Position numbers and translations under genes: made by a program. From NCBI RefSeq assembly GCF_016097415.1, contig NZ_JAEHGE010000001.1:4108610-4172609 (forward strand): a stretch of 64,000 bases of DNA. Reading direction: 5' to 3'. The notes under the pieces were generated by a model that saw only the letters and a program-made list of their open reading frames with translations, was not told the DNA's origin and made no database searches. This stretch comes from a sulfur-oxidizing endosymbiont of Gigantopelta aegis. Lineage in GTDB: Bacteria; Pseudomonadota; Gammaproteobacteria; GRL18. Below, piece after piece: positions 9,567 through 59,774 of this stretch; positions within the stretch are counted from its first letter, which is position 1, and the number at the start of each line of letters is the position of its first letter.

Positions 9567-9690
9567 CAAAAATTACCGGAGGGAAGTATTATTATGACAA
9601 TAAAAAATGCTGCTTCTGGCAACTCAGAATTTCAAGGTGATGTTTAACAAAGAATAGCGACCAAAAACAAGTTTACAATCAACAAGTTAT

Positions 9691-9767
9691 TGGTAGGCGC
9701 GAGTGGATTCGAACCACCGACCCCCACCATGTCAAGGTGGTGCTCTAACCAACTGAGCTACGTGCCT
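9691..9767 (-). tRNA. tRNA-Val (GAC)
   Basis: The minus strand reads TAGCTCAGTTGGTTAGAGC (D arm), CCACC-TTGACAT-GGTGG (anticodon arm, anticodon GAC = valine), and GGTTCGAATCC (T arm), with the 3' CCA encoded. The acceptor stem AGGCACG/CGCGCCT has one A-C mismatch at pair 5. The gene is 77 nt. Confidence 0.95.
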
Positions 9768-15868: not shown

Positions 15869-15970
15869 TTCTAGTTCCTGTAAAACAATTAGAGTAATTA
15901 ATCTTGAAGAAGAAAATCTTATCCATTGTAATTAGCAATACACAATTGTCAAATTTAAACTCTGAATAAT

Positions 15971-16037
15971 CCTAGAAACCTCAGTTGAACCTACTGCGAG
16001 CGTCCAATGTACTGGAGATTCAACTGAGGTTTCTAGG
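15971..16037. mobile_element. Short 67-bp member of the CCTA...TAGG MITE family
   Basis: CCTAGAAACCTCAGTTGAA at the left is matched by its near-perfect reverse complement at the right. The left part continues CCTACTGCGA, as in the longer copies at 38471, 56773 and 59529. Flanking 5-bp duplications ATAAT occur at 15966-15970 and 16038-16042. It is most simply an internally deleted copy. Confidence 0.85.
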
Positions 16038-16047
16038 ATAATCGCAA

Positions 16048-38264: not shown

Positions 38265-38470
38265 GTTTTACTCTAAAATCTTCAAATCCAGTCATAGCCT
38301 GCCAAGCACTTACAAAAACCATTCACGCAAACTATTCACGTACACTATTTACGCATAAAAAGAGGCAGCTAAATCCAAACGATGAAAAATTGAAAAGTTC
38401 TATTATCGGTTACTCAGACATTTTTACAAGAAATTTTACGGACGAGTTGATATAATCAGACAAAAATAAT

Positions 38471-38646
38471 CCTAAAATAATCAGTTGAATCGTAGCGAGA
38501 GCGACTTAGGTGCTAAAGATTAAGGGTTTTACAGGTTATTTTGGCTTTATTCGTAGTCACCCTACGGGTGAAGTCAAAATGTTCTGGAAAATCCTTAAGA
38601 TTCAGTGCATAAGGCGGTCGCAGTAGGTTCAACTGATTTTTTTAGG
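38471..38646. mobile_element. MITE, 176 bp, CCTAAAA...TTTTAGG family
   Basis: The ends CCTAAAATAATCAGTTGAAT and (reverse) CCTAAAAAAATCAGTTGAAC are imperfect terminal inverted repeats. The inside folds further (TTAAGGGTTTTACAGG against CTGGAAAATCCTTAA). The target duplication ATAAT flanks it (38466-38470 and 38647-38651). No coding capacity. Copies also lie at 15971, 56773 (split) and 59529. Confidence 0.92.
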
Positions 38647-38704
38647 ATAATACAACATAGAGTAAAGCTCTTCTATTTGATTTAGATTACTGGCTATTAA
38701 CCCA

Positions 38705-56591: not shown

Positions 56592-56802
56592 TTCCTTCAG
56601 AGTCAAAATATTTTATCGACAATTAATCGGTCACGTACTTATGACTTAAGCTCAGGCTTCAGTCATATTTTAATTTCATCGTGAGTCAGATGAGTTACCT
56701 CAGCAATAAAGTTGATGGCAGCGCCTGCCTGGTACATATTTAGGGCGTTTTTTTACCTCCAACGCCCTTTATCCTAAAAAAATCAGTTGAACCTACTGCG
56801 AC

Positions 56803-58700
56803 GTAACTTCTCAATAAGTCTGTGCATTTAAACAGCACAAACTTTACCTTTCAGCAACTCAGGCAGATATGGGATCAAATTTCTCTTGCTGATCCGGTCA
56901 TTAATAAAATCCCAGAATGAAATTCCTTGTTTCAAACAAGTTTTCTTTAAACTGACAAAGGTATCTCTGCAAAGTTGCCCATCCTTTGAGCGTGTACTAC
57001 CACTAATTTTACGCTTAATAACATATTCTCGAATATCATTTTCACTCAAATTATTATGAAGAGGAATATCAGGCCGTTCCAATACCAGCAGTAATTCTGT
57101 TTTATTTCTTGCCAATCGTTTCAGTGCCTGATTCAACGTTTCAAAGCTTGTTTTAGTCCGGCACAATTCATCAAAATGTTCAGCAATCGCTGACTTCAAC
57201 GGATCATCTGGCTCAAGTTTATATTGTTTGAGATCATAAAATAGTTCCCAAATCTGAGTATGTACCCAGTTCAGTTCTTTATCATGTCGCTCATTGAGTG
57301 GTAGTATCCGCTGAAACACTCTGTCTGCATGTATCCAACATAATGCGTGCAACAAAATATCAAATTGTCCTGCATCATCACTCACAATCACCAAATCACT
57401 TGGAAAGCCACTGTTAATTAATGCCCCCAGTAAAGCGCCTTCTGTGGCAATGCGAACATGCCGTTGTGTTATGATACTATTGTTCTGCAGATAGTATTTC
57501 CAGGCTTCTTCATTATCAAAGCAAGTCTGATGACTTTGTTCAATAACGCTCAATGGCTTGTGAGGTAATTTTTCTGCTCTCATATAATCAAGTGCTGCAT
57601 CGTTGAGCGTATAATCAACAGCAGCACCTCGTAACAATTAAATTAATCCGGCTCTTATATCGAGTACTTGAAAACCAGGCAAAGGTTTCATTGCCAACGT
57701 GAGTACAATAACCATTCTTTCCATCATGACGACTACCCGTATCATCAACATGGATATAAGTACTATTGTTGATACCGGCAGTTAGCAATGTATTTTTTTC
57801 AGTATGAAAATGGTCTTTGTCATGGATTAAAATCTCATTGATCTGACCCGTTGAAATATCAAAACCTAATTCTGTTAATTGTTGTATTATCAATGGCTGA
57901 GTCACTCTCTGGTGATAATATTGATAAACGATATAACTCTGTAATGTATGGCCAAAAATGTCCTATATGTGTATCAAAGCTCAATTTTCCTATACAGGTA
58001 TCACCATCGGGTGTTTTATAGCGAGCCAATCGATAACGAGTATTGAAAGGCTTAATCAGCAGCTCCTGAACAAAATAATCCTGATACCCTAAAAAACGTG
58101 AATGTTCTGGCAGGTTATCTGGTTTGATAACGGTGGTTTTATGAATAGCCAATTTCTTCTTTCGTTTACGACTTTTACTAGTCCCATTTCCTGAGTTGTT
58201 TTTCTTGCTTCCTGAATGACCTGTCGGATTATCATTGTCATCATCCTTTGGCAATTTACTGGCTCTTATTTTAGGCTTTGGAGGTAGCTTTTTAAGCTTA
58301 GCAACTTCTGTTTTAAGGGCATCGATTTCAACCTGTTGGTTTTGAATGATTTCCTGTTGTTGCTCCATGAAAGCAAGGAGTAATCGGACTACCGGTGTCT
58401 TTTCTTCTTCAGGTATCTCTGGAATTGGAGGTAATTTTTTCACTATAATCAATACAGGTTGTTTTCAATAAAACAATTGTATCATGGCTTTTAAGGCTCT
58501 TTAGTTTGCCCTGTGTTGATCAAACTCCTCTCAGTTAAGATAATATTCAAAAATATTCTATTTCGATCTGAGACAGATCGACAGGATCATTTATAGGGAT
58601 AAATTACATGGGGCAGTGAAAATGCAATTTTTGTCCTAAATGCTGTCAAGACTTTTTTTGTTTTTATTTCAAGTTTTGCACAGACTTATTGAGAAGTTAC
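56803..58700 (-). mobile_element. IS66-family element (ISBst12-like) with 8-bp duplication
   Basis: 1,898 bp. Terminal repeats GTAACTTCTCAATAAGTCTG(TGCA) are perfect at both ends. ACTGCGAC is duplicated (56795-56802 and 58701-58708), as expected for IS66. It carries only the large transposase gene, so it is of the type without tnpA/tnpB. A terminal fragment of the same element lies at 61796-61834. Confidence 0.95.
56828..58452 (-). pseudogene. IS66 transposase (two frameshifts)
   Basis: N-terminal leucine-zipper-like and zinc-binding-type region (EQQQEIIQNQQVEIDALKTE, then LPEHSRFLGYQDYFVQEL), 58452 to about 57880. A second segment to about 57630 has YIHVDDTGSRHDGKNGYCTH (first catalytic Asp). 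The third segment contains the remaining DDE region and RNKTELLLVLERPDIPLHNN, NDIREYVIKRKISGSTRS. Frame breaks near 57880 and 57630 inactivate it. Confidence 0.88.
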
Positions 58701-58887
58701 ACTGCGACCGCCTTATGCATTGAATCTTAAGGATTTTCCAGAACATTTTGACTTCACCCGTAGGGTGACTACGAATAAAGCCCAAATAACCTGTAAAACC
58801 CTTAATTTTCAGCACCTAAGTCGCTCTCGCTACGATTCAACTGATTATTTTAGGTTTATTGTTATATATTTTTCATCATGATATTAT

Positions 58888-58924: not shown

Positions 58925-59119
58925 ATGAGAACTAATATTGTTATTGATGACCAGCTAATGGAAGATGCTTTGAAGGCTACAGGCTTAGGCACAAAGAAAG
59001 AAGCTGTTGAACTTGGGCTTAAAATGCTAGTAAGACTCAATAAACAACAAGAAATCCGGAAACTTCGAGGGGAACTTAAATGGGAAGGTGACTTGAACGA
59101 AATGAGAGGCGGAAAGTGA
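58925..59119 (+). CDS. vapB: VapB-type antitoxin
   Basis: 64 residues, MRTNIVIDDQLMEDALKATG... A start at ATG 58925 is preferred because GAGG lies 6 nt upstream and the family begins here; the frame is open to 58859. The short beta strand (TNIVIDD) plus two helices is an RHH DNA-binding fold, and KKEAVELGLKMLVRLNKQQE is typical of DUF2191/VapB. The C-terminal tail (KLRGELKWEGDLNEMRGGK) binds toxin. It overlaps vapC by 4 bp. Confidence 0.88.
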   Translation: MRTNIVIDDQLMEDALKATGLGTKKEAVELGLKMLVRLNKQQEIRKLRGELKWEGDLNEMRGGK

Positions 59120-59520
59120 TACTGGTTGACACCAGTATTTGGATTGATTATTTCAATGGTATTGAGAGTAAAGAAACCAACATCCTAGATCTTGCGCTCA
59201 TCGATGGCATGGTAGTTATCGGCGATATAATAGCAATGGAAATACTTCAAGGATTTAGAAGTGATACAGATTATAATAAAGCAAAAAGTCACTAGCAACT
59301 TTGGAACAGTATGAAATGTTTGGTCAAAGTATGAGTATTAAATGTGCGGATAATTATCGTGCATTGAGAAAGAAAGGAGTCACCATTAGAAAAACTGCAG
59401 ATGTGATTATTGCTAGTTTTTGCATTGAAAATAAAATCCCTTGCTCTTTTCAGATAGAGATTTTATGCCATTCGTTACACACCTCAACTTACTTTCAGTG
59501 TCAGACTAGTTGCGCCTCTA
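59116..59520 (+). pseudogene. vapC PIN-domain toxin (two frameshifts)
   Basis: From GTG 59116: MILVDTSIWIDYFNGIESKE (first Asp), VIGDIIAMEILQGFRSD (Glu), then a premature stop at 59293 because one base is lost after AAAAGTC. The next frame continues LATLEQYEMFGQSMSIKCAD and IRKTADVIIASFCIENKIP. A second shift near 59440 would give LLFSDRDFMPFV, the usual end. The toxin RNase is inactive while the antitoxin frame is intact. Confidence 0.85.
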
Positions 59521-59528
59521 AATTTTAA

Positions 59529-59702
59529 CCTAAAATAATCAGTTGAATCGTAGCGAGAGCGACTTAGGTGCTGAAGATTAAGGGTTTTACAGGTTATTTT
59601 GGCTTTATTCGTAGTCACCCTACGGGTGAAGTCAAATGTTCTGGAAAATCCTTAAGATTCAGTGCATAAGGCGGTCGCAGTAGGTTCAACTGATTTTTTA
59701 GG
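59529..59702. mobile_element. MITE, 174 bp, CCTAAAA...TTTTAGG family
   Basis: Near-identical to 38471-38646 in the same orientation. The target duplication TTTAA flanks it (59524-59528 and 59703-59707). It follows the vapC pseudogene. Confidence 0.92.
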
Positions 59703-59774
59703 TTTAATCATTAGAAGCAAAAAATGAAGACTGTGCTCGCCAGTTTGTATGCTGTCTGCCCCACTTATACACTA

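Follow-up and report, generated by a model that had tools for sequence, protein, structure and literature searches.

The window analysed here, a 64,000-nucleotide stretch of the genome of a sulfur-oxidizing endosymbiont of Gigantopelta aegis, contains three copies of a non-coding MITE with 19-bp terminal inverted repeats and copy lengths of 174-176 bp (Table 1). All three had been proposed in the initial annotation and were recovered both in the sequence and by end matching, each flanked, as described there, by a different A+T-only 5-bp duplication that is perfect on both sides. A search with the terminal 19-mer, allowing up to 3 mismatches, returned 5 matches in the window against 0.04 expected by chance. 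The middle copy, which had been called split, is one copy in two pieces, interrupted by a decayed IS66-family element that carries an 8-bp duplication of its own. According to the initial annotation, the window also lacks any element with matching ends that could supply a transposase; this held for the window, but a related 67-bp element, an internally deleted member of a sister subfamily (B), had been overlooked. Two further features of the window were observed. Between the second and third MITE copies (58926-59460), a small ORF followed by a broken PIN-like ORF resembles, by eye, a decayed VapBC-type toxin-antitoxin pair, and at 9580-9729 on the + strand there is an Rfam match to the HPnc0260 antisense RNA (60.9 against a gathering score of 59), which is probably spurious and overlaps an opposite-strand tRNA gene at 9694-9767.

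Table 1. Features of the MITE copies and related elements in the window.
Feature	Coordinates	Strand	Basis
Target-site duplication ATAAT (left)	38466..38470	.	Sequence
Intact 176-bp MITE, terminal repeats CCTAAAATAATCAGTTGAA / CCTAAAAAAATCAGTTGAA, full-length hairpin	38471..38646	+	
Target-site duplication ATAAT (right)	38647..38651	.	
Target-site duplication TTTAT (left)	56768..56772	.	
MITE copy, first piece (MITE nt 147-176)	56773..56802	-	
Decayed IS66-family element nested in the MITE	56803..58700	-	PF03050, NF033517, sequence
8-bp duplication ACTGCGAC of the nested IS66 element	56795-56802 and 58701-58708		Read in sequence
MITE copy, second piece (MITE nt 1-154)	58701..58854	-	
Target-site duplication TTTAT (right)	58855..58859	.	
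Target-site duplication TTTAA (left)	59524..59528	.	Sequence
Intact 174-bp MITE copy	59529..59702	+	
Target-site duplication TTTAA (right)	59703..59707	.	Sequence
Sister subfamily B member, internally deleted, 67 bp (15971-16037), ends CCTAGAAACCTCAGTTGAA, ATAAT duplications	15966..16042	+	

Copy number across the 4.91-Mb genome was determined from pattern searches together with the sequence stretches retrieved, following the proposal in the initial annotation that the ends be searched genome-wide. The ends matched 169 times in the whole genome and the reversed control 0 times. On the largest contig, 45 paired ends were found (38 of 176 bp, 6 of 175 bp and 1 of 104 bp), and when the other contigs are included the intact 175-176-bp copies number about 58, in agreement with the 116 two-strand candidates obtained at first look. 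Beyond these, over 20 copies are truncated or carry internal deletions, and sister subfamily B has about 10 members. Perfect 5-bp duplications flank 32 of the 41 copies examined, with TTTAA, TTAAA, ATTAT, ATAAT and TTCAA the commonest, and the target resembles WTNAW. The copies are overwhelmingly intergenic, and only 2 joined flanks give an open frame of at least 120 aa across the site. Identity to the window copy is 98-100% in the 40 copies with the best scores, which suggests that the amplification was fairly recent. Among the copies examined in this genome, no clear bias of orientation relative to neighbouring genes was seen, a result that does not favour a fixed role in any one particular untranslated region.

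The truncated and deleted copies include minimal elements of about 37-45 bp, in which the two ends are joined and the 5-bp duplications are intact (L274:190-226, L046, L057 and L038). The same CAGT-CAGT deletion recurs among them at different sites, reflecting either recurrent hairpin deletion or mobile mini-elements.

Outside this genome, at least 109 stretches of named genomes contain the end pattern, the hosts among the matches listed including Nitrosomonas, Methylococcales, Thiodiazotropha, Parashewanella and other gammaproteobacteria; a few, such as those in Streptococcus or Lachnospiraceae, are single matches that probably arose by chance. The pattern occurs in 24 of 96 relatives' genomes, most of them of the same family, and paired ends spaced 52-330 bp apart in other genomes are flanked by 5-bp duplications of the WTNAW form. 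Searches of plasmid and phage collections for the MITE gave no match. Further matches to the end pattern were noted in a contig of a member of the same genus (G007:C34) and in a gammaproteobacterial symbiont of Taylorina (JAHXIV010000044.1).

Empty sites were identified in sister species. When the flanks of the copy at C1:511460 are joined, several of these align across them without a break. In G010, the gap between dnaB and the phosphoesterase gene, which is the site of the first window copy (38471), is about 242 bp long, the joined flanks of that copy measuring 244 bp. The original interpretation of the repeat as a MITE finds support in its numerous scattered copies, in the perfect duplications of 5 bp, in the occurrence of homologues in many other bacteria and in the empty sites of sister species. 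The strong fold and covariation described below might instead be taken as signs of a dispersed but immobile structured regulatory RNA or gene part, a reading that we consider very improbable, as it is largely refuted by the perfect 5-bp duplications and the empty sites and as no Rfam family matches.

The search for an autonomous parent of the MITE, also proposed at the outset, yielded IS1380-like elements whose ends and target duplications are of the same kind. In one of these, from a Methylococcaceae MAG (L179), an intact transposase of 516 aa lies exactly within the ends CCTAAAAAAATCAGTTGAA and CCTAAAAAAATCAGTTGAG, which are identical to the MITE ends at 19 of 19 and 18 of 19 positions, and the flanks of the element agree at 4 of 5 bases. 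The protein matches PF13701 above cut-off. Among NCBIfam models IS1380 fits it best, but the score of 125.6 bits stays below the trusted cut-off of 180, which marks the protein as a divergent relative. Searching this genome with the same protein revealed two decayed full-length IS1380-like copies of about 1.68 kb each, bearing related ends of the CCTA...TCAGTT type (CCTATAAAAATCAGTTAAA / CCTAAAAACCGCAGTAGCC) and perfect 5-bp duplications (TTTAT and TTTAA). Frameshifts or stops disrupt both, and an intact IS1380-like copy was not recovered from this genome by the protein search. Since the end CCTAAAAACCGCAGTAGCC fits the MITE less well, the exact parent of this subfamily was not found among them.

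Protein searches of the relatives G004, G009, G018 and G020 gave further IS1380-like elements with CCTA-type ends, and clean 5-bp duplications are visible in those of G004 (TTAAT) and G018 (TTTAA). The four IS1380-like copies with CCTA ends and readable duplications (TTTAT, TTTAA, TTAAT and TTTAA) fit the rule for the IS1380 family, in which ends begin CC(T) and duplications are 4-5 bp long; the ends of ISEcp1 likewise begin CCT. ISEcp1 duplicates TATGA, which is 5 bp and A+T-rich, and the duplication length expected for the family is also supported by the same source (PMC2887853). Because the resident copies and those of the four relatives were found without use of the MITE ends, L179 alone having come from an end scan, the match of ends is not circular. 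The probable parent resembles the IS1380 family (ISEcp1 type) in its PF13701-group DDE transposase, its length of about 1.7 kb, its CCT ends and its 5-bp A+T-rich duplications, whereas the MITE itself lacks a transposase and the tied transposases, being below the NCBIfam IS1380 trusted cut-off, form a divergent branch.

In G003, a species of the same genus, CCTATAAAAATCAGTTGAA and the leader of the same kind of IS stand at many contig breaks (for example L263 and L264), which suggests a high-copy, possibly active IS in this sister species; a protein search for the transposase in this fragmented assembly gave no match. On inspection, the MITE interior has no clear similarity to the sampled IS1380-like elements and is not an obvious remnant of their transposase genes. 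Several other candidates were rejected. The end pairs in L184 and L195, spaced 1.6-1.9 kb apart, enclose no recognisable transposase; C2:34020-36740 is an IS66-type element next to a truncated MITE end; and the lone ends L034, L035, L042, L048, L049, L052, L068 and L069, considered as autonomous elements, are deletion derivatives or truncated copies.

That the MITE is driven by another transposase family that duplicates 5 bp (Tn3-like, IS3 or IS1634) appears improbable, given that Tn3 ends begin GGGG, that the ISL3 and IS66 elements observed here differ in their ends and duplicate 8 bp, and that CCTA...TCAGTT ends were found in IS1380-like elements only. Such a driver would be compatible with the richness of this genome in other IS families and with the 5-bp A+T-rich duplications that Tn3-family elements also make (PMC2887853). 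The ends, the duplications and the co-occurrence give good support to the reading that the MITE is mobilised by an IS1380-like transposase, which is therefore its probable driver. An IS1380-like DDE transposase acting in trans would recognise the 19-bp terminal inverted repeats (CCTAAAAnAATCAGTTGAA) and move the MITE into A+T-rich, WTNAW-like targets, duplicating 5 bp in the process. As the resident IS1380-like copies are now pseudogenes, such mobilisation in this genome probably lies in the past, unless a functional element has been lost or is unassembled.

The whole MITE is an imperfect palindrome, and the copy at 38471-38646 folds as one full-length hairpin at -83.9 kcal/mol on the + strand, against -53.9 kcal/mol on the opposite strand and a shuffled mean of -37.1 for the + strand. 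The same homologous strand is favoured, mostly by 20-40 kcal/mol, in the full-length copies of this genome that were scored and in homologues of similar length elsewhere. An alignment of 15 members from several bacteria showed compensatory change on both sides in 28 of 68 pairs, and 97.9% of its cells pair, against 87.7% after shuffling and at most 49% with slid partners; the homologues are related, so the shuffle counts are not probabilities, and the slid control and the count of G-T against A-C were used as well. With partners set by geometry alone, G-T mismatches on one fixed strand occur in 27 columns and A-C mismatches in 8, the exclusive columns being 25 and 6 (column sign-test p 0.0009) and the cells 137 and 21. 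The members had been turned to their more stable strand before alignment and all then aligned in one homologous orientation, so that the turning amounts to one two-fold choice overall, which the two-sided test covers.

These observations might also be explained without selection on RNA, if the MITE is an ordinary one driven by IS1380 and its hairpin is only a palindrome in the DNA, maintained as one arm is corrected from the other (by template switching or gene conversion). We regard this as quite possible, if somewhat short of an even chance. Near-palindromic arms are common in MITEs, and arm correction alone yields paired changes, for example that from AA/TT to CC/GG in the neighbouring alignment columns 9-10. 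In the longer relatives, of about 230-245 bp, the numbers of G-T and A-C differ little. Arm correction is strand-blind, however, a G-T on one strand being an A-C on the other, yet G-T dominates one fixed strand; moreover, UA/UG or AU/GU alternate in many variable wobble columns, a pattern for which the simple loss of C from one strand does not account. The favoured strand is G-rich and C-poor and its A-G mismatches exceed C-T, which leaves some room for a strand-specific mutational bias.

The covariation and the G-T excess on a fixed strand suggest that a single-stranded form, whether a transcript or another, has been selected, and lend moderate support to the hairpin having been selected as RNA. 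Read-through transcripts of the MITE would fold into the long hairpin, and since compensatory and G-U changes preserve the fold on one fixed strand, we infer that this fold is, or was, under selection. Possible roles of such an RNA include insulating or stabilising mRNAs, or RNase III processing. No promoter or intrinsic terminator stands out in the MITE, and no Rfam family reached its gathering score at the MITE copies. The possibility raised in the initial annotation, that the sequence might be part of a conserved RNA and hence not a MITE, therefore fared unevenly: no known family was matched, while the interior does behave as a conserved, strand-specific hairpin, and this behaviour adds to the MITE reading and does not replace it. 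Taken jointly, a MITE, its mobilisation in trans by an IS1380-like transposase and a one-strand fold under selection make up the explanation that we consider very likely. A more far-reaching proposal is that of a mobile structured RNA: an IS1380-mobilised MITE with a conserved strand-specific hairpin interior, spread over several proteobacterial groups, that would act once transcribed, for instance as an insulator or stabiliser of mRNAs into which it has inserted. This is put forward tentatively and is on balance doubtful.

Compared with known systems, the ends and duplications of the present family differ from those of ERIC, RUP, Correia/NEMIS and other bacterial palindromic MITEs, a comparison that draws in part on general background. 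Like the present family, those MITEs are palindromic intergenic repeats of 100-250 bp for which mobilisation in trans is assumed (PMC10969869). QMITE1 and QMITE2 of Coxiella burnetii are likewise gammaproteobacterial MITEs with truncated derivatives, whose transcripts fold as one long hairpin with G-U pairs, but their duplications are 2-4 or 7-9 bp and not 5 bp; QMITE1, unlike the present MITE, has no orthologue in other genomes by BLASTn (PMC5896051). IS1380 is absent from a review of prokaryotic MITEs (PMC10969869), no described IS1380-linked MITE was found in the open-access literature searched, which is no proof of priority, and a literature search with the MITE end sequences returned unrelated papers only. 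This is apparently a new MITE family of a known kind and the first to be tied to IS1380. An orphan repeat family of Nitrosomonas, Methylococcales, Thiodiazotropha, Parashewanella and other proteobacteria is thereby tied to a transposase family best known for the mobilisation of resistance genes, for which the literature searched held no link to MITEs. The interesting part is the strand-specific conservation of the hairpin, whose covariation offers a concrete, testable case for the question of whether bacterial MITE hairpins are selected as RNA.

As a minor observation, ISL3-type ends (GGCTCTTCTCCGCTTTGATGAGTG) lie inside two separate MITE copies (L039:5131-9314 and L276:157-541), the first insert containing an ISL3 transposase fragment. 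Both insertions are at the same site, CAAAATRT, at about nt 103-110 of the MITE, and L042:4992 may be a third; the MITE hairpin may be a preferred ISL3 target.
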